In this document: positions 4,779 through 56,437 of the stretch, one piece after another
Position numbering within the stretch: the first letter of the stretch is position 1
Layout of the letters: the number at the start of each line of letters is the position of its first letter
Origin: Norana najaformis
Taxonomy: Eukaryota > Annelida > Clitellata > Crassiclitellata > Hormogastridae
Direction of reading: 5' to 3'
Assembly (NCBI GenBank): GCA_964023275.1
Contig: OZ029921.1
Location: forward strand, 31,408,230 to 31,472,229
Length of the DNA: 64,000 bases
Translations under genes and position numbers: made by a program
The notes under the pieces: generated by a model
The model's input: the letters and a program-made list of their open reading frames with translations, nothing else
The model's database searches: none
What the model was told of the DNA's origin: nothing

Positions 4779-5436
4779 TGGATTATTTATTTATTTATTT
4801 ATACAGAACACTTATATAGCGCTCCTTCAAGAAAACTACTCAGAAGCGCTCCCAAACCAACCTCGGCGAAAGAGAACAGTCTTAAGAGAAGAATAGAAGA
4901 TAGAAGTAAAATCCCGGGGCACAAGACGTAGAGTAACAGGAAGTCCATTCCAGAGGGTTGGGCCAGCAACAGAGAAAGCACGACGCTGCATGGTCTAGGT
5001 ACGAGCGCGAGGCACTAATAGATACCACTAGCAGCGGAGCGAAGAGTACCACGTCCCAAATTGGACCGGACAGGTAGGCAAAGCTCCCTCAAGTAAGAGG
5101 GGGCAATACCCAACAAGGAGTTCTAAACAAAGACGATGACCCTATAGTGGATGCGCTGACTCATAGGAAGCCAGTGCAACTCATCTCGCATGAAATCAGA
5201 GACATGACCAAACCTAGAGATGCCACCAATATGCCGTGCAGCCGCCCGCAACACACGCTCCAGGCACAAAAGCCGAACATCAGGGAGTCCTACATATAGA
5301 GAAGAGCAGTAATCCAGCCGACTAGTGACAAATGCATGAACCAGAGTCTTAGATGAGGTGACTGAGAGAGAACGTGAGACAACACAAAGATGCCGTCGTA
5401 GCTGGTAGTAGCAACTACGACAAAGACGATGTACCT
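4779..5436 (-). mobile_element. CR1-like LINE, C-terminal part of RT ORF (left part, split by L2)
   Basis: Read on the minus strand, this encodes the region after the reverse transcriptase core of a non-LTR element: RLCRSCYYQLRR, then TLVHAFVTSRLDYCSSLYVG, then a long LPDVRLLCLERVLRAAARHI segment and DELHWLPMSQRIHYRV, with stops further on. The 3' end lies at an (ATTT)n tail at about 4779-4801. The upstream part of the same ORF is found at 8987-9480, so the element was cut in two by the L2 insertion. It is inactive. Confidence 0.82.
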
Positions 5437-8400
5437 TCTTATTTTTGGTCTACGTTTCATGATCGCCTTCCATATTAGTTGCCAACCCTTCCACACCCGC
5501 TTGCCCTACATTGTTCCTACAGCCAAACATTCTTACTGCGCCCAATTTGGCACAACGACTATGCAGTATGGACGTATGTGTTTTATTCCTTTATCGTTCT
5601 TCCTAACTTCATCTCTCAGGCGACCACCACAGCACCTCACCCGCCATACCATCTTCAACATACTAATCCTGCTTTCCGGGGACATCCACCCAAATCCTGG
5701 CCCACTGGATTTTTATTCATGTTCTCCTCCCTCACCTCCTACCTATCCTCCTCCTTCCAGAATTTCTTCCTCCAACTTCCTCGACAATACTCAAAATACT
5801 GACAACAGCCGCTTCTTACTTTGCACGCTAAATATCCGATCATTACTACATCCTGCACATTCACAAGAAATCAATGATATAGCCCTCTCTTCTCACCCGC
5901 CTGACATATTTGCCTTATCTGAAACCTGGTTTAATTTAAACACCACTCTTGCTCAGTATGAAGACTGTATTCCTCCTGGCTACCATCTTTACAGTACACC
6001 TCGTCCCTGTAAACCATCTAGCCCTTCTCATAAAAATCCAACTGGAGGTGGTATTGCCTTTCTCACCCGAGAACCTGCCACAGTTTTAGACTCACCTGGT
6101 TACTGTTTCTACTCTTTTGAATGTGCATCAGTTACGCTTAAACTTCCTCACACAAATCTGACTATCTTTAATGTATATCGCCCTCCATCCTCCTCTTCAT
6201 ATTCAAGTCCTCCATCGGTCTTCCTGAAAGAATTTACCACCCTCCTCTCTACTGCCGCCACTACACCTCATGAATTTCTGATTACAGGTGACTTCAATAT
6301 ACATGTCGATAACCCCTCTGACACATTTGCTTCTGAATTCCTCACCCTATTGTCCTCAACTAATCTGGTTCAACATGTCAAATTCCCCACCCACATTCAC
6401 AATCACACACTTGACCTTATTATCACATCATCATTCTCCACTCTATCACCTGATATATCTTTCTCTTTTGACACGCCATCTGATCATTACCCCATCTTTA
6501 CATATCTTAACATTCTTCCGACACCACGTCCTGATCCTGTCTTTCATTCTTTTCGTCGCATCAGTTCAATAAATATTGAAGCCTTCATACAAGATATTTC
6601 CTGTTCTGACCTCGTTTTAAATCCACCCTCCTCCCTGGATGACCTTCTCTCTTCCTATAACACCACTCTTTCCACTATCCTTGACAAGCATGCTCCTATT
6701 ATTATCAAATCCAGTTCTCACTCTAACAATCCTTGGTTCAACTCCTATCTCCAGGCCTTCAAATCTTTCCGGCGACGCCTTGAGCGTGCCTACAAACGCA
6801 CCAGGGATCCTGAACTTCTCTCTGCCCTTAAATCTGCCACAAATAAATACCATCGCCTTCTTACTGCAGCTAAACAGAGATTTTACTCCTCACTAGTTCG
6901 TGCTCGATCCTCTAGCCCTCGCCTTCTCTGGAAAACCATTAATCAACTCCTCCATCGGAACTCATCTAGCCCACTTCCAAATTCTCTTCCGTCTTCTTCA
7001 ATAGCCGACTCGTTCTGTTCTTTCTTTTCGAACAAAATTAGTACCCTCCGTCTCTCTCTTCAATCTCTACTTTCCAAAACCTCCAACAATCCAGCTGCTG
7101 ATGCTCCCTCTTCCACCTATGACAGCCCACCTTCCCCACCTCGATCCTCATTTTCTGCTTTTCAACCTACATCAGAGACCGAAATACTAAATCTGCTAAA
7201 ATCTCTCCCAAACAAACAGTGTGAACTTGACCCTATACCTACCTCCTTATTGAAAGACTGTGCATCTGTCCTTGTTCCAATTATTACCAAAATAGTTAAC
7301 CTCTCCCTCTCTACTGGAAATTTTCCCCTTCTTTTTAAACACTCTCTTGTTACCCCTCTTCTCAAGAAATCATCTCTCGACAAGGAAATCCTTTCTAACT
7401 ACCGGCCTGTTTCTAACCTGACTTTCATCTCCAAATTAACTGAACCGATTGTCCTCTCTCGAATCAATAACTATTTAGCTTCTAACTCACTCATTAACCC
7501 ACACCAGTCTGGTTTTACTAAACGCCACTCAACCGAAACTCTGCTGACATCTCTCTACAACAAGCTTGTTTCTGCCATTTCTCATCAACAGGTTTCTTGC
7601 CTCTGTCTCCTCGATATCTCTGCAGCCTTCGACACCATAGATCACAATATCTTACTCCACCGACTTTCAACCTGGTTTGGTTTTGCTGACACTGCTCTCC
7701 TATGGATACAGTCTTATCTCTCCTCCCGCTCTTTCTCTGTTAAAACTTCGGAAGCCTCTTCTAAGTCATGCCCTCTCACTTGCGGAGTTCCACAAGGCTC
7801 CGTTCTTGGACCTCTTCTGTTTATCCTCTACACTACCCCACTCAGTTCACTCATTAAAGCATCCTCCGTTGACCATCACCTCTATGCTGATGACACCCAA
7901 CTATTCATCTCTTTCTCTCCAAATTGTTTCAATGAATCTACAGATCATATTCTTTGTGTGGTTAAACAAATCTCCTCTTGGATGACATCTAATCTCTTAT
8001 GCCTGAACCCATCTAAAACTGAATTCATACTGATCGGCCTACGTGACCAGCTCAAGAAAATTCCTGACCCCTCTATCTCCCTCAGCCTGGACTCTGCCTC
8101 CACCCACGCCTTTAATACTAACTCTTCTGTCCGTAATTTAGGTGTTATTTTCGACCAGAACCTTACTTTTTCTGATCATATCACTCATCTTTCCCGCTCT
8201 TGCTTTATGCATATCCGCGACCTTCGCAGAATCCGTCCTATGCTTGACTTCAAAACCGCATCTATCATTGCCACATCCATAGTCCATGCAAAACTTGACT
8301 ACTGCAATTCACTTTTCCTCAATATTGACACAACCCAGATAAATCGCCTACAAGCTATCCAGAATGCTCTCGCACGTGCTGTCACCAAAACCCCCAAACA

Positions 8401-8981
8401 CCATCACATCACCCCTGTTCTCAAATCACTGCACTGGTTTAAAATACCAGAACGAATAGAGTACAAAGTCTTATCCCTCACCTACAACACACTTCAATCC
8501 TCCCAACCCTCCTATCTTCGTCAATTATTTACTATCCAACCACTCCGTTCAACCCGCTCCTCATCTGTCCTAACACTTCTTCGCCCTCCCGTCACCTCAT
8601 CCTTAAAATTTGGAAATCGCTCGATAGCCATAGCTGCCCCACCCCTTTGGAATAAACTCCCGCCAGAATTGCGACAGTTGTCTGGTCAATCCTACGAACT
8701 CACCAACACTTCACCTCTTTCAGTTTCTGCGCAGGTCTTTCACTCAAGACTGAAAACACTTCTTTTCCAGAAATCTTATCCTGATTCTTCCCCTCATCTC
8801 TCTTCTCGCTTCAGTTTCAAACATCATCCACCGTAGCCGTCCGACTGTCTGAGTGCCTGACTCCTGGATCTTGACCCTTTTGCCTATCGATTTTGTTTTG
8901 ACTGAGCGCCTGTGAATAAGCTGGTTCCCGCAACTTAGCTTTCGTTGAGCGCTGTAGAAATCTCGAGATTACGATTATGAT
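5437..8981 (+). mobile_element. L2-type non-LTR retrotransposon, intact ORF2, inserted into an older LINE
   Basis: This is a 3.5-kb LINE with one long ORF and a short 3' UTR ending in a GATTAC-type tail (near 8967-8981). The 5-bp string TACCT flanks both ends (5432-5436 and 8982-8986) and fits a short target-site duplication, although the last bases of the tail could also contribute. The left end sits only about 22 bp before the first internal ATG, so any ORF1 is missing: either this copy is 5'-truncated or the family lacks ORF1. The lack of stops over 3.3 kb argues for recent insertion. Confidence 0.9.
5459..8836 (+). CDS. L2 LINE ORF2: AP endonuclease and reverse transcriptase with 2A-like N-terminus
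   Basis: The protein is about 1,125 residues from the first ATG inside the element (5459). The reading frame also has an ATG at 5429, but that lies in flanking DNA. Counted from 5459, residues about 74-82 read GDIHPNPGP, a 2A-like motif preceded by a hydrophobic stretch. An exonuclease-endonuclease-phosphatase domain follows (TLNIRSL, SETW, TGGGIAF, TGDFNIHVD, SDHYPIF; roughly residues 120-345). The reverse transcriptase has LPNKQCELDPIPTSLLKD, SNYRPVSNL, HQSGFTKRHST, LLDISAAFDTIDH, GVPQGSVLGPLLF and the catalytic YADD encoded at 7883-7894. The C-terminus has the typical LHWFKIPERIEYKVLSLTYN region and ends KHHPP. No frameshift or stop is visible. Such proteins act on element RNA and nick target DNA to prime reverse transcription. 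Confidence 0.95.
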   Translation: MIAFHISCQPFHTRLPYIVPTAKHSYCAQFGTTTMQYGRMCFIPLSFFLTSSLRRPPQHLTRHTIFNILILLSGDIHPNPGPLDFYSCSPPSPPTYPPPSRISSSNFLDNTQNTDNSRFLLCTLNIRSLLHPAHSQEINDIALSSHPPDIFALSETWFNLNTTLAQYEDCIPPGYHLYSTPRPCKPSSPSHKNPTGGGIAFLTREPATVLDSPGYCFYSFECASVTLKLPHTNLTIFNVYRPPSSSSYSSPPSVFLKEFTTLLSTAATTPHEFLITGDFNIHVDNPSDTFASEFLTLLSSTNLVQHVKFPTHIHNHTLDLIITSSFSTLSPDISFSFDTPSDHYPIFTYLNILPTPRPDPVFHSFRRISSINIEAFIQDISCSDLVLNPPSSLDDLLSSYNTTLSTILDKHAPIIIKSSSHSNNPWFNSYLQAFKSFRRRLERAYKRTRDPELLSALKSATNKYHRLLTAAKQRFYSSLVRARSSSPRLLWKTINQLLHRNSSSPLPNSLPSSSIADSFCSFFSNKISTLRLSLQSLLSKTSNNPAADAPSSTYDSPPSPPRSSFSAFQPTSETEILNLLKSLPNKQCELDPIPTSLLKDCASVLVPIITKIVNLSLSTGNFPLLFKHSLVTPLLKKSSLDKEILSNYRPVSNLTFISKLTEPIVLSRINNYLASNSLINPHQSGFTKRHSTETLLTSLYNKLVSAISHQQVSCLCLLDISAAFDTIDHNILLHRLSTWFGFADTALLWIQSYLSSRSFSVKTSEASSKSCPLTCGVPQGSVLGPLLFILYTTPLSSLIKASSVDHHLYADDTQLFISFSPNCFNESTDHILCVVKQISSWMTSNLLCLNPSKTEFILIGLRDQLKKIPDPSISLSLDSASTHAFNTNSSVRNLGVIFDQNLTFSDHITHLSRSCFMHIRDLRRIRPMLDFKTASIIATSIVHAKLDYCNSLFLNIDTTQINRLQAIQNALARAVTKTPKHHHITPVLKSLHWFKIPERIEYKVLSLTYNTLQSSQPSYLRQLFTIQPLRSTRSSSVLTLLRPPVTSSLKFGNRSIAIAAPPLWNKLPPELRQLSGQSYELTNTSPLSVSAQVFHSRLKTLLFQKSYPDSSPHLSSRFSFKHHPP

Positions 8982-8986
8982 TACCT

Positions 8987-9480
8987 GAGCCTTAAAAGAG
9001 AGCTCCTGATCCAACTCAATGCCAAGGTCATAAACAGTGACTCAGAAGATGATGTGAGGAAACTCTAAATGAAGTACAGGTAGACTGATTTTAGCCAATT
9101 GCTGCCTAGTGCCCATCCAAATATATTGAGTCTGGGAAGGATTCAATCTCAATCGATTTGAAGACATGCAAGCCACAAGGGAGTCAGAAGCACAACACAT
9201 AGCTCGAACAGCAGCTGCGGCATCAGAAGCAGAACAATGAACATAGGCCTGCACATCGTCGGCATAGGACTGGCTTGAAGCCGAGCATGCAGCTAGCAAA
9301 GAGCCAAGGTCAGCAGTAAACAGTATATAAAGCAAGGGACCCAAAACTGACCCCTGAGGCAATCCAAACAAGGAAGGAACCCAAGGTGAGCGGGATGGGC
9401 CACAAACAACACAGAGCGTGCGCTCAGATAGAAAAGAGGCCAACCAATCGAGAAAGTTGCCAGATAAACCAAAAGAAATA
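8987..9480 (-). mobile_element. CR1-like LINE, RT core fragment (right part, split by L2)
   Basis: The minus strand encodes a reverse transcriptase core: GNFLDWLASFLSERT, LFGLPQGSVLGPLLYILFTA, SYADDVQAYVH, SSNRLRLNPSQTQYIWMG, then after a small frame disruption DLGIELDQELSFKAQV. The last residues continue directly into RLCRSCYYQLRR at 5430 on the other side of the L2. The fragment appears 5'-truncated at about 9480. Confidence 0.85.
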
Positions 9481-9855
9481 GCTAATAAATAGCTACATAG
9501 GATGGTAAAGGCTACTCATCTTTGTTATGACAGTGTCGTTAAACAGAAATCACACACAAAGCAGAATAAAACTGAATAAAATAACAATAAAAGTAAATAA
9601 AATATGACCAGTCCCAGATGATGAGCAGAGCAAGATCATGAAATCAAGTCAAAACTTCATATTATCCGAGGTTTTATATTGCAAACTTTTCCCCAAGACC
9701 GAAAATTTTTTCAGGTTAAGCGGTATTTTCGTATTAAGTTTGTGATAAAGCTATAAATTTACATTTATGCCGTTGACGCTGGAACGAACCCAGCATCCTT
9801 TTCGCGTTAATCAATACTTCGTGTTAAGTGTTTTCCACTGTATTTTATCCACCTT

Positions 9856-31612: not shown

Positions 31613-31812
31613 ATCTGTATAGTTAGAATCAGAATTAAGTAGCATAAAAAGGCCGCTGTAAAGACAACTGCTTGATATAACAGTGTTTACTATTTCTGAT
31701 AATCTTTACCCCATTTCAATTAATATATTTAGATTTTGATAGGATACCTTGAAGATATCAGCTGTGAAATAATTTTAGATGTTTTGTGTTGTAGGATTAT
31801 TTTCTCAACAGA

Positions 31813-34800
31813 ATGGGATCAGTTCAGCATTTACATCGGATTACGATGAGATGCATTGTTCTCTTATTTGTCTGTCTTCTCTTCCACATTCTTTTAACAG
31901 ACTGTGGTCCTGTTAGAAAAAAGAGAAGCCGGTCTAAGAATGCTTCTGCCGAGATCATTCAAGGAATGAAAACTCCAAAGCTCAATCGATCATCAAAAGT
32001 CTTTGCGAGCGTTGGTGCTGACCTGCGGCAAGTGATCGAGATGAACCGTGATGTTGTCCAGTTTGACCAGGTCAACTTTGCTGGAAAGCGGGTGGCTGCT
32101 GACCATGGAAATGAGGTGGGGAATGAAGATGTCGCAGGGAGCAGTCCATTGCCAGGGGTGTCAGCACCTTGGCAGTCTGCTGCTGGTGGTGAGAGGGTTG
32201 GGCAGTTGCCACCAGTGATAGCAATTCCTGGTTCTTCCCAAGTAAACACAAGTTCAGAGGATCAGAAAGTAAACTTGGTTAAGAATGGAGAGGTGGAACA
32301 TCCACGTGAAGAACAGGGAGTGGCAGTCGGGGTGGGTGGCATGAATCGGGAGCTTTCAACAACTCAGGCCCAAAAAGTATACCACAAAGGACCAGATTCG
32401 TCCCTAGATATCGGAGCGGCTGATCGAGGGGGTTCTTTAGAAAGCCGGCAGAAAGCACAGTCGCAGAATGAACCAGCAGATAACAATCCTCCTTCAGATA
32501 CTGGCAGGTCAAGAGAAAGTGATGGCTTGAGTGTGAATCCTGCTTTGCAGCAGCCTCCACCACAGGTGAGGGAACCGCCTGTGGATCAATTTCGAGATCA
32601 ACAAATCCAGCTGGGTCCAGTGAAGCCAGACCGTGAGGCTCCAGTGCCAGTACCGATTGGGCAACACCCTGCCCCACTGGGAAGAGATGAGGTCCATCTG
32701 ATAGGAACCCGAGAATCGAATGCAGCTGCCGAAGCAAACAATGAAGCTCAGCCAAAAGAGCATCCTCTGAAGTTCGATCAGCAGAAGAAGGATGTTGCTA
32801 ATGAAAATCAGCTGGTGAAGTTGGATGAAGTCAATCCACCGGATCACATGGAGGGAGTCCGGATGGAACAGGATGGACACCTGAACCGTGATTACAAGAA
32901 AGAGATATTCCTCGGTCATCACGAGGAATTCGAGTGGAGTGATGAAGAGAAGGTTTCTGGAAGACTGAAAGTTATCTTCCGCCGGTAAGGACCTAACAGA
33001 ATATGAATGTAGTTTCGTAGTGGCTGTTTGATTGGCATAGTGCCAAGGATGTTGTTTGGTTTGGTTCTTTTAATAAAATTTGTTTATAAAATTTGTTTAT
33101 TTGTTCATATAGTTACTTTTCTTTAGTGTTGAATACTGGCTTACGGAATACTGTTTATAATGTGAGATAATGACAACAAATTGCAGAACTGAAAGGTTGT
33201 AATTGTGCAGTCAGACCTGATGTTAGACTTTTTGTAATTGTTAGTATTGTCATTAACTGTTGGAGATCAATAAAGTTTTGTTCAGTTGAGTTCTGTTTAG
33301 CCTCAAGTGGAATTGTTGCCCTCTGTTGGTTTGTTTATGTCATAAATGCACCTGGTCTCAAAGGTCTGCAAACATAATGCCAAGTGTCTGAGACTCTTAA
33401 GCATGTAGTGGTTCTTAATATGTTTGTCAGTGGTACATAGAACTGTGATCATCAATGTTCGAACATCATTTTTTGTTATTTTTTATGTACTACACTAAAA
33501 TAGAATTTTAGATGTGATAACCAATAAATAGACTTAGTGTATTTGCAGACTTTCTGCTTGTGACTCTTGCAAATAGTATGTCTGTGCTTAAATATGTTTA
33601 TCAATTTAACTACCTACCAGTGTCTTTATTTTCAAAGAACTTTGTGCCGAAACAGAGCATCTTTTTGACTCTTCTGGTTTGTTGATGTAAGCGGATAGTT
33701 TCTGATGGTATATAGTCTAAATATTTACCATTACCGTGAGGAATGCTGCTTACAGAGACTTAACCAGCAAACACTGATGTAAACGGATGATTTTTTCATA
33801 GGGTGGATACAAATCGAGATAACTACATGGATGCAAACGAGATCCAGGTGTGGATTATGAAGAATGTCAAAGTTCATCTCGACGATGCCATCAAAGACAA
33901 CGCAAAGGTTTTCAGACATCTCGATGCAGACAAAGATGGTGAAGTACCAAACTATAAAGCATATTTTTGATAATATTTGTAGATGCAATGCGTGTTGGTG
34001 AAGTTAGCTGCTGAAGTCCTGGCTTCAGTTTATTATCAGGATTGAAATTTAATTTTTAAGAAGCTTTTGCATTTTCTCCATTCCAGCTTAGGTTGATTAA
34101 CTAAACTTGAAAATCAACCGGCTAGGTTTTGACTTGCCATCAGTTGATGCCATATGCATTAGATGCAAAGATTAGTTGAGTTTCGATTAGATTACTGTCT
34201 AGTTTTGATTAGATTACTAGTTAGTTTAGAGAATAGCATGTACCATCGACTGATGCCTCATGCGTTAGTAAATGGCACATCAGAACTGTCTTTATATATG
34301 CCTGCATACATAGGGCCTGCATACATGCATATGTGTGGCCCATATGCATACGCTTTACATATGCACATTAGGGCTGATATATGCATTGTGACATAATAAT
34401 GCATACACATACTGTACATACTTGCATGCATGCATACTTGTCAGGTACATGCATTTACATACATTCCAGTTAAATACCCTGAAGCTAGCTAATATTTGCA
34501 AATAATGACCTGGTTACATGAAACAAGACTTAAACTTTGGTATGTCATACCAAATTGGTAAGCTTGATGATGTTATCATTAAGCAGTGAAACTTCCTAAT
34601 TTATATTAACACTTGCTGATGTGAAATTTCCAGGATACGTGTCGTGGTTGGAATTCTTCTCACATTTCCTTGTGGCAAAGGGCTATGTTCATTCAGCAAA
34701 GGACGTCCCACAGAATGAATCGGCTGTCACACTTGAAACTGATGGTTGGTTTGACAGAGCGTTCCTAGAAAAAAGTGTCTGTATGGAATGTAATGGAATG

Positions 34801-53902: not shown

Positions 53903-53949
53903 ACGGCGAATTTTCATACAGTCTGGAAACAGAATCATCGTAATAATAA
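53903..53949. repeat. 47-bp perfect direct repeat, left copy
   Basis: Identical over 47 bases to 56117-56163 (starts ACGGCGAATTTTCATACAGT, ends CATCGTAATAATAA). The two copies, 2,214 bp apart, bracket the transposase-like gene. Confidence 0.93.
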
Positions 53950-54153
53950 CACTGGACAACAAATTTTTACAAAAGTCATGTTACTGAAATGAAATTAGTC
54001 AGTTCTTATCAATTTGTATGTGCTGAACACGAATATGACAGTGAAAATGCCGAATTGGCTCTAGTTTTTTTGTAATCTGAACTGAAGTAATTTTATATCG
54101 CACAATGCATGCCAATAGTGATACACTTACAGTTAATATTTGTAAAAACCAGG

Positions 54154-55855
54154 TCATAGACTAGTTCTTAGATTTTTTGCCTGTCTCTTGTACAGCTGTT
54201 CGGGAGCATCTCTGCGGAGTGTCCAGCAGTAGTCAGCCAACATTGTAGTGGACCATTTTCCCTGGTACCTTTGCTCCATTGTTGCGATATCTTGATGAAA
54301 ACGTTCGCCATGTTCGTCACTAACTATACCACAGTTGTCAGGGAAGAAATCCAGATGGGAATGAAGGAAATGCATCTTCAGAGACATATTGCAGCGAAAT
54401 TTCTGGTACTGCTTGAGCATGTCTTCTACTAGTTCCTTGTAGTTTTCTGCCCTAACATTCCCCAGAAAGTCTGTAGACGACACTAGACGAAAAGCATTCC
54501 ATGCTTGTTTCGCATCACCCTCCAGCAAGTTGTTGAAGCGGTCATCTTTGAAGAGTTCTCTAATCTGAGGACCCACAAAAACTCCCTCTTTAATCTTTGC
54601 TTCGCTGAGTCGAGGGGAATTTTTCATGCAGGTATCGGAAAGCTGGCGAAGTGCGGTCCATGGCTTTCACGAAGTTCTTCACCAAACCTAGTTTGATGTG
54701 AAGGGGTGGTAGTAGGATTTTGTGAGCCTCGACCAGAGCTGGGTGCTGGATATTCTTCTGTCCAACTGCCATGTTTTGTCTGGGAGTCCATTCCTTCCGC
54801 ACGTAGTGCAACTCTCTTGCTCGGCTATCCCACTCACACAAGAAACACATATATTTTGTATATCCTTGCTGCAGTCCCATTAAAATGGCAACTACCTTCA
54901 AATCACCACACAGGTGCCATTTGTACCTGTTATAGTCAATGGAATGCAGTAGCTGTTTTAGGTTATCGTATGTCTCTTTCATGTGGACAGCATGCGCTAA
55001 TGGAATAGATGGAAGACGGTTTCCATTGTGCAAAAGCACAGCCTTAAGACTCAGTGTTGAAGAGTCTACAAAGAGTCTCCATTCTTGTGGGTCATGAGTG
55101 ATCTGTAAGGCATTCATGAGGTCGTCAATATTGGAACAGAATACCCGATTACCTTCCTTCATAAAGAAAGGTTCCAACTGCTGATGGCGCTTTCTATATG
55201 AAGTAATTGTGACATCTTCTTCTAGAAGATTCCATTGTTGGAGTCTTGATCCTAGCAATTCTGCCTTGTTTTTGGATAAGTCCAAATCACGAACAAGGTC
55301 ATTTAGTTCTTCCTGTGTTATTCTGTGTGGGGTTGATGATGCACCACAGTGAAAATCGGGATCACTGCACGCTGACGGACCAGGAGAAGAACATGTCGGC
55401 TCACCCTTGTCCTCATCAGATGAATCAAGGAAAATATATTCTGCTGGAGGTTCTGGAATAGGAAGTCCATCACCATGTGGAACTGGTCTCAATGCTGACG
55501 GAATGTTTGGGTAGACTATTGTCGACTTCTTTTGCTTCGTTATTCCACCGGAAAGAGGAGGAACCAAGCAGAAGTAACAGTCATCTACGTGGTTGCTTTG
55601 CTCTCTCCACACCATGGGAACTGCAAACGGCATTGATGGTCTTTTGCCATTCAACCACTGTGAAAGCTGTGTTGTACATGTAGCACAGCATATATGCGGG
55701 GCCCATGGCTTGTCTTGGTCACCAACCTTGCATTCGAAGTAAGCATGATATGCCTTCTTGACTTGATAAGTGATACTTTTCTTCTGGTTGGCAAATGTCA
55801 CTTCCCCACAAATGTAACAAAAGTTGTCCACAGTATTTACGCACTTCCGAGGCAT
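54154..55855 (-). pseudogene. Orphan invertebrate Zn-finger/transposase-like gene, one frameshift
   Basis: Minus-strand, intronless, about 565 residues if read through one frame change. Part 1 (55855-about 54615) has an N-terminal cysteine region, C13-x2-C16, C56/C57-x2-C60 and C93-x2-C96; an acidic linker (about 140-175); then VDSSTLSLKAVLLHNGN (D264), CGDLKVVAILMGLQQGYTKY (D318) and CFLCEWDSRARELHY (C337, C340, H350). Part 2 (about 54615-54154) has EGVFVGPQIRELFKDD, MSLKMHFLHSHLDFF and SDEHGERFHQD. The shift falls in the GGGG run near 54611-54617. I recognise the family as conserved, multi-copy proteins in aphid, cnidarian and other invertebrate genomes without an agreed name. D264, D318, the CxxC...H block and a later E suggest an RNase H-fold (DDE) transposase, but this is inference. 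Only one lesion, so the copy may be young. Confidence 0.78.
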
Positions 55856-55970
55856 TACTGTTCTGTATTGTATCTAAATGGATAAAGTAATAATAGTTTT
55901 TATAAAACAGTAACTTAAACTGTCTCGCACAAAGTCTGTAATATTGTAAATGCTCAACCGTTCCGACTCG

Positions 55971-56010
55971 CTTTATATAGTACACTGCTGACGTCATCTT
56001 ACGTCAGCAG
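55971..56010 (-). promoter_or_regulatory. TATA box and CRE inverted repeat of the orphan gene
   Basis: On the minus strand TATATAAAG (55979-55971) lies about 116 bp before the start codon. Immediately upstream, CTGCTGACGT (55985-55994) and ACGTCAGCAG (56001-56010) form a perfect inverted repeat with a 6-bp spacer; the left half contains the CRE TGACGTCA. The arrangement looks like a compact promoter. Confidence 0.55.
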
Positions 56011-56116
56011 CCGACTGGCTGTAGTTTTACATTGCATCAGAAAATGACGTAATCAACTGTGCATGGTGTGCCCATGATGGGATTATGCAATGAGGTGGAA
56101 TATTACATCATTCTAG

Positions 56117-56163
56117 ACGGCGAATTTTCATACAGTCTGGAAACAGAATCATCGTAATAATAA
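56117..56163. repeat. 47-bp perfect direct repeat, right copy
   Basis: Identical to 53903-53949. An L2 3' fragment starts about 17 bp to its right. Confidence 0.93.
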
Positions 56164-56179: not shown

Positions 56180-56437
56180 GGCCTGAAAACACTTCTTTTC
56201 CAGAAATCTTATCCTGATTCTTCCTCTTCCTCTTATCTCTCTTCTCGCTTCAATTTCAAACAGCATCCACCGTAGCCGTCCGACTGTCTGAGTGCCTGAC
56301 TCCTGGATCTTGACCCTTTTGCCTATCGATTTTGTTTTGACTGAGCGCCTGTGAATAAGCTGGTTCCCGCGACTTAGCTTTCGTTGAGCGCTGTAGAAAT
56401 CTCGAGATTACGATTACGATTACGATTACGATTATGG
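56180..56437 (+). mobile_element. L2 LINE 3' fragment, close relative of the intact copy
   Basis: Corresponds to 8750-8981 of the intact L2 with very few differences, including CTTCTTTTCCAGAAATCTTA, TGACTCCTGGATCTTGACCC and TCGTTGAGCGCTGTAGAAAT, and ends in four GATTAC-like units. Strong similarity indicates the same young subfamily. Confidence 0.9.

Follow-up and report, generated by a model that had tools for sequence, protein, structure and literature searches.

The window, that is, the whole stretch of 64,000 nucleotides that was analysed, carries on its minus strand a copy of a Chapaev3-like element whose transposase gene is read in two overlapping frames. Two 47-nt direct repeats, identical to each other, lie immediately outside the element. 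Residue positions below were assigned by alignment and codons were counted by hand, for part 1 from the ATG.

53903 to 53949, plus strand: 47-nt direct repeat at the intact 3' end; its minus-strand reading opens with the TTA target triplet
53950 to 56116, minus strand: Chapaev3-like element copy, 3' end intact at 53950, delimited by comparison with 41 other copies
54154 to 54666, minus strand: transposase gene part 2, 170 aa in the other frame, with H494-x4-H499 and E516 (codon 54306-54304)
54590 to 55855, minus strand: transposase gene part 1, ATG at 55855 (the open frame itself spans 54590-55873, 427 aa), with the N-terminal Cys-rich part, D264 (codon 55066-55064), D318 (codon 54904-54902), C337/C340 and L385-H386
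55856 to 56116, minus strand: retained 5' leader, with a candidate TATA-like box at about 55970-55979 predicted from sequence only
56117 to 56163, plus strand: second copy of the 47-nt direct repeat, abutting the eroded 5' side with 2-nt microhomology

The two frames were compared with a database protein of 563 aa that is intact (P0001). Frame 54590-55873 was identical to it at 410 of 420 residues and frame 54154-54666 at 145 of 147. Since both match one intact protein, the single frame change between them, at about 54.6 kb, interrupts a coding region that is open elsewhere. The element, at 53950-56116, is larger than this gene, to which the preliminary description was confined. At its 5' end the window copy lacks 188-190 bp of the 2353-bp element; indeed, other long loci have in common a further stretch of up to about 190 bp, upstream of window position 56116, that is missing from the window copy. 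In the retained leader, an imperfect palindrome (85% over 26 nt; 55970-56010, minus strand) with TGACGTMA words, which we take to be CRE-like, lies just upstream of the TATA-like box.

Several other features were observed in the window. A Wnt gene exon is found at 1244-1711 on the plus strand (Pfam wnt, E = 7.8e-66). A LINE open frame at 5402-8836 on the plus strand (1144 aa) encodes an endonuclease and a reverse transcriptase and is followed by a (GATTAC)n-like tail to about 8984. A 5'-truncated copy of the 3' end of this LINE (96% over 241 bp) starts at 56183, beside the element, and further pieces occur elsewhere in the window. A second reverse transcriptase fragment lies at 9042-9515 on the minus strand (RVT_1, E = 2.3e-7). 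Only six proteins in the collection are related to the open frame at 31795-32988 on the plus strand; three match 14-15% of the frame, and two of these three carry EF-hand-type domain accessions.

The transposase gene and its copies in the genome

In an alignment of 65 family members, residues D264, E294, D318, C337, C340, H386, H494, H499 and E516 were invariant, and an alignment of 104 members agreed on the invariant residues. The order D264, D318, CxxC, HxxxxH and E516 given in a preliminary description of this DNA is thus present, interrupted by the one frame change. Based on invariance in the 65 members, D264, D318 and E516 may form the catalytic DDE triad.

At a threshold of E = 1e-3, the window query matched 2507 of 5000 scored candidates, and a more distant member (P0110) used as query matched 2125 of 7994. 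Among the matches listed, named relatives came from frog, electric eel, turtle, lamprey, firefly and moth. With named members in vertebrates and insects, the family is neither restricted to invertebrates nor an orphan, contrary to the "orphan invertebrate gene" proposed initially. A Lethenteron protein is 56-58% identical to the family and carries no Chapaev3 label. Of the zinc-finger N terminus also proposed, the Cys-rich part is present, but its likeness to zf-AD is weak (8 of 65 members, best E = 0.0017 in Pfam). Pfam profiles of reverse-transcriptase RNase H were touched by 3 of 65 members (best E = 0.04). Otherwise, a Pfam search with the 65 members gave no convincing match for the family, a profile search of solved structures (PDB) returned three matches in all, each with E > 1, and searches of IMG/VR, prokaryote genome contigs and plasmids yielded nothing useful for the family.

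We searched the genome of the window (608.4 Mb, 17 contigs) and obtained 99 scored matches from 5858 first-look candidates, a number that is a lower bound on copy number. Copies were located by their match to residues 1-421, and losses reaching these residues fall outside the sample. In 75 of the 99, the open frame was 564-572 aa long, with no stop within the matched part. The gene consists of a single exon without introns. Conserved, intronless and multi-copy, as first described, are therefore all apt terms.

The complete element (reference L021) measures 2353 bp and encodes one 563-aa transposase. Its ends were analysed in 98 of the 99 copies (all except C1:39685166), in one genome and for one family; 10 of the first 52 copies had been picked for odd frame lengths, and the final set comprises 98 of the 99 listed. 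Both ends were reached in 71 of the 98. These complete copies have CACTGG...CCAGTG ends: they begin with CACTGGTCAACA and finish with TGTTGTCCAGTG, forming an imperfect 12-bp inverted repeat when the inverted ends are compared (CACTGGTCAACA / CACTGGACAACA). An exact 3-nt target duplication was present in 43 of the 71, the triplet being TTA in 18, TAA in 11, ATA in 4, AAA in 3, TAT and TAG in 2 each, and TTG, GTA and CTA in 1 each. In the remaining 28 complete copies, the number of matching bases was 0 (8 copies), 1 (11), 2 (5), 4 (3) or 6 (1).

The copies are closely similar. Over reference positions 450-1850, 42 long loci, including L007 and the window copy, showed a mean pairwise divergence of 0.30% and a maximum of 0.71%. 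The element was thus amplified very recently in this genome. Eight neighbour pairs lay within 50 kb of each other (18-48 kb apart), compared with 0.84 expected and at most 5 in 2000 random draws, and in two of the close pairs an internal stop was common to both members. No two left flanks were alike when compared among the copies. The close pairs look like local hopping, and the amplification probably proceeded in part by such hops. The frame change of the window copy was common to one other copy (L009) among the 42 compared; L009 lies at a different site and is eroded at the opposite end. As the break recurs elsewhere in this way, broken copies were probably mobilised by transposase supplied in trans by other copies.

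The 99 dispersed copies exclude a single-copy syntenic host gene, which the preliminary description had named as the alternative to a transposon. More broadly, an ordinary conserved host gene would have been consistent with the high protein conservation and the long open frames, but given the dispersal of the copies, their 0.30% divergence among 42, the transposon ends and the target duplications, we regard its probability as negligible. The proposal of a DNA transposon with a DDE-type transposase is upheld by an element that is high-copy and very young, with defined ends, target duplications and relatives in very distant animals.

Relationship to Chapaev3 and other DDE transposons

We compared the family with published descriptions of related groups. 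The accessible portion of Zhang et al. 2014 (PMC4079192) describes Chapaev3 by C(2)C, LH and H(4)H motifs, CAC...GTG ends and 3-bp TWA duplications. Here, C337-x2-C340 and H494-x4-H499 were found in 65 of 65 members, and L385-H386 with L in 63 and H in all 65. The ends of complete copies are likewise CAC...GTG, and the target is a TWA-like 3-bp sequence, with TTA or TAA making up 29 of the 43 exact duplications. Complete Merrow and Garfield elements are given in the same portion as 2289-2455 bp with proteins of 554-562 aa, close to the 2353 bp and 563 aa found here, whereas Conan of tenrec is shorter (1865 bp, 461 aa). Merrow and Garfield have two exons and most other Chapaev3 one exon (PMC4079192, as far as accessible), while the gene described here has a single exon. 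That text also reports a patchy spread over insects, lampreys and other vertebrates, between which the elements moved horizontally more than once. The sole reported hallmark that was not clearly matched concerns the flanks: an A before and a T after the duplication are called invariable in that part of PMC4079192, whereas here A preceded it in 16 of 22 copies, T followed it in 16 of 22, and both were present in 11 of 22.

Based on motifs, ends, target and size, we conclude that the family is a putative new member of Chapaev3. Since these hallmarks are matched, the undescribed DNA-transposon superfamily suggested earlier is not supported; motifs, ends, TWA target, a length of about 2.3 kb, a protein of about 560 aa and the spread all agree with Chapaev3 as presented in the accessible text of PMC4079192. 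The lack of a convincing Pfam match and the E values above 1 against solved structures would be in line with a new superfamily, but all Chapaev3 hallmarks compared except the A...T flanks were found, and length and protein size are near those of Merrow and Garfield, which makes this reading very improbable.

The wider affinities of the family were also considered. According to the portion of Kojima 2025 (PMC12730594) that was available, EnSpm, Mirage, Chapaev, Transib and RAG1 share C(2)C and H(3-4)H. Our family is like EnSpm/CACTA and the wider CMCT clade in having these motifs between the second D and E, CA..TG ends and a duplication within 2-5 bp (PMC12730594, same portion), but differs from EnSpm/CACTA in being a small single-gene element. 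No EnSpm-named Pfam profile was present among the 25 best of the 30 families matched by the 65 members, the other five being matched by at most one member each. In mouse RAG1, we checked the letters of D708, C727/C730, H795, H937/H942 and E962, which we take to be the catalytic and zinc-ligand counterparts. The second D and the first Cys are 19 residues apart in both proteins, and HxxxxH precedes E in both. An assignment to RAG1/Transib from this zinc-ligand spacing was nevertheless rejected. Transib and RAG-like elements have 5-bp duplications, as stated in the part of PMC7204232 available, compared with 3 bp here, and exact 5-nt duplications occurred in 0 of the 71 complete copies. Moreover, HHalign comparisons with RAG1/Transib pieces were not significant (P = 0.18 and 0.05); the five best 60-residue family windows in these comparisons all covered the SDEHGER stretch (P = 0.05-0.11). 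The C/DxxH motif of the hAT/MULE group was found somewhere in 15 of 65 members, and no single position carried it in more than 8 of them. Thus, of the hAT/MULE/CMC-like signature initially suggested, the likeness to the CMC/Transib/RAG1 group holds and that to hAT/MULE does not.

Truncated copies and their direct repeats

DDE transposons usually leave a short target duplication of characteristic length. The window copy, with its 47-nt repeats, is one of 27 truncated copies among the 98 analysed, of which 14 are truncated at the 5' end, 13 at the 3' end and none at both. In 25 of the 27, we observed a direct repeat of more than 5 nt, the 99% limit for chance matches as estimated from 1080 mismatched flank pairs (mean 1.2 nt, maximum 10 nt). 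The repeat abuts the intact end; in 21 copies it extends precisely to the eroded junction, and in 4 to within 1-13 nt of it. The intact-end triplet was TTA or TAA in 21 of the 27. A long repeat was found in none of the 38 complete copies examined for it, and in the full set 2 of the 71 complete copies had a weak local match that did not abut both junctions. The 47-nt repeat is not a terminal repeat of the element, since it is absent from the other 41 long-locus copies, nor is it the ordinary long target duplication of a new superfamily, as complete copies mostly have 3 bp.

Losses ranged from 29 to 374 bases and repeats from 7 to 89 nt, and the two were proportional. Repeat length correlated with bases lost (Spearman 0.81, bootstrap 95% interval 0.58-0.93; Pearson 0.88), with an overall slope of 0.21 (95% interval 0.165-0.252) and an intercept near zero. 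The slope was 0.216 for 5' losses and 0.219 for 3' losses. None of 20000 permutations matched the correlation, whether or not shuffling was confined to one end class at a time; among 5' losses taken separately, the rank correlation was weaker (0.57, p = 0.035). Three truncated copies fell below the trend: L077/L078 (96 bases lost, 7-nt repeat), L097/L098 (74, 7) and L153/L154 (169, 11). Among the 16 copies whose repeats were exact and at least 8 nt long, microhomology at the eroded junction averaged 2.1 nt, compared with a theoretical chance value of about 0.67. The scaling of repeat length with loss resembles a fossil trace of transposition events that failed at one end.

Other transposons are known to yield copies shortened by deletion or by gap repair that was interrupted. 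To our knowledge, such routes do not generate long direct repeats, and the resulting losses should tend to be internal. Ordinary deletion after insertion, or interrupted gap repair, could account for the two truncated copies that have no above-chance repeat, L063/L064 (32 bases lost, 1 nt) and L087/L088 (160 lost, 3 nt), but the other 25 of the 27 carry one. Moreover, the longest internal deletion among the 32 complete long-locus copies was 13 nt, a figure to be read with the selection by residues 1-421, which hides deletions there. As a general origin of the truncated copies, these routes therefore have a slim chance, marginally below that of a new superfamily.

If the host LINE had retrotransposed transcripts of the element, a copy like that in the window, truncated at its 5' end and flanked by a long direct repeat, would also result; such retro-DNAs are described in primates in the part of PMC11195612 available. 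However, 13 of the 27 copies are truncated at the 3' end, the intact ends are exact and mostly lie at TTA or TAA, and no poly(A) or (GATTAC)n tail was seen by eye at the junctions inspected, so that this explanation is hardly credible. The 3'-truncated copies contradict it.

Similar structures are known from other systems in part. IS481EU also shows long duplications, of about 15 and 24-25 bp, beside duplications of 4 bp, according to the accessible portion of PMC10045372. These are discrete lengths at complete copies, in contrast to the continuous range of 7-89 nt, confined to truncated copies, described here. Single-ended transposition of piggyBac in cells (available portion of PMC3952818) is alike in that one end is used and the target motif is kept, but with piggyBac the second end remains at the donor, whereas here it is eroded and sealed beside a proportional duplication. 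The words truncat, one-ended and direct repeat are absent from the portion of PMC4079192 that was accessible. Our literature search on long duplications and one-ended events, which covered top-ranked results and left subscription journals mostly outside its reach, found no description of truncated copies of a DNA transposon whose duplications scale with the loss.

Possible origin of the truncated copies

The window copy is a defective, one-end-eroded copy of a very young, high-copy Chapaev3-like transposon. The pattern among the truncated copies suggests that either transposition or excision took place at one end only, and that erosion stayed coupled to the copying of target DNA up to end joining. 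We consider it probable that the window element is a defective form of an autonomous, recently amplified Chapaev3-type cut-and-paste transposon of the CMC clade, and that this truncated copy was formed by one-ended joining. In such an event, only one element end would have been joined to the TWA target at the window site. From the target 3'-OH, strand-displacement synthesis would then have copied the intact target strand. Meanwhile, the free end of the element would have been eroded. Microhomology-assisted end joining would finally have sealed the eroded end to the extended target. The product would keep one end intact and the other eroded, between direct repeats whose length reflects how far erosion had gone. 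If erosion and extension both ran until joining, like two clocks, this would explain both the proportionality and the target duplication, by either of the two routes.

We tentatively favour, at close to even odds, the view that single-ended transposition is recorded in roughly one copy in four: one end, which may be either, was joined at a TWA-like target and the other was eroded, with a duplication of about 0.22 nt per nt lost. A less likely route is one-ended excision. Here the transposase would have cleaved just one end of a copy already inserted in the heterozygous state. The flank would have been lengthened by synthesis on the homologous chromosome lacking the element, and the element end, after erosion, would have been joined to it through microhomology. 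Structure and length coupling would come out as in one-ended transposition. Excision would also fit the repeat sequences, as if the second repeat had been copied from the other haplotype: in repeats of at least 8 nt, we counted 11 mismatches in 904 bases (1.2%), about four times the element divergence of 0.30%. One-ended insertion alone does not predict this excess, which leans towards one-ended excision or error-prone synthesis. The repeat of L034 alone has 4 differences in 49, all transitions by eye. On the other hand, with a mean divergence of 0.30%, excision would require many such events in a short time, and the youth of the copies thus favours one-ended transposition. None of the 98 copies is eroded at both ends, which also speaks against excision, although calculation expects only about two.

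A young, mostly intact, high-copy Chapaev3-like element such as this is a good candidate source of a working CMC transposase, in the neighbourhood of RAG1 and Transib. Weightier than the element itself is the scar pattern, i.e., duplications of 7-89 nt in proportion to the loss. Sequence data can thereby be used to test for single-ended transposition in eukaryotes, and there is a numerical prediction to carry over to other families.
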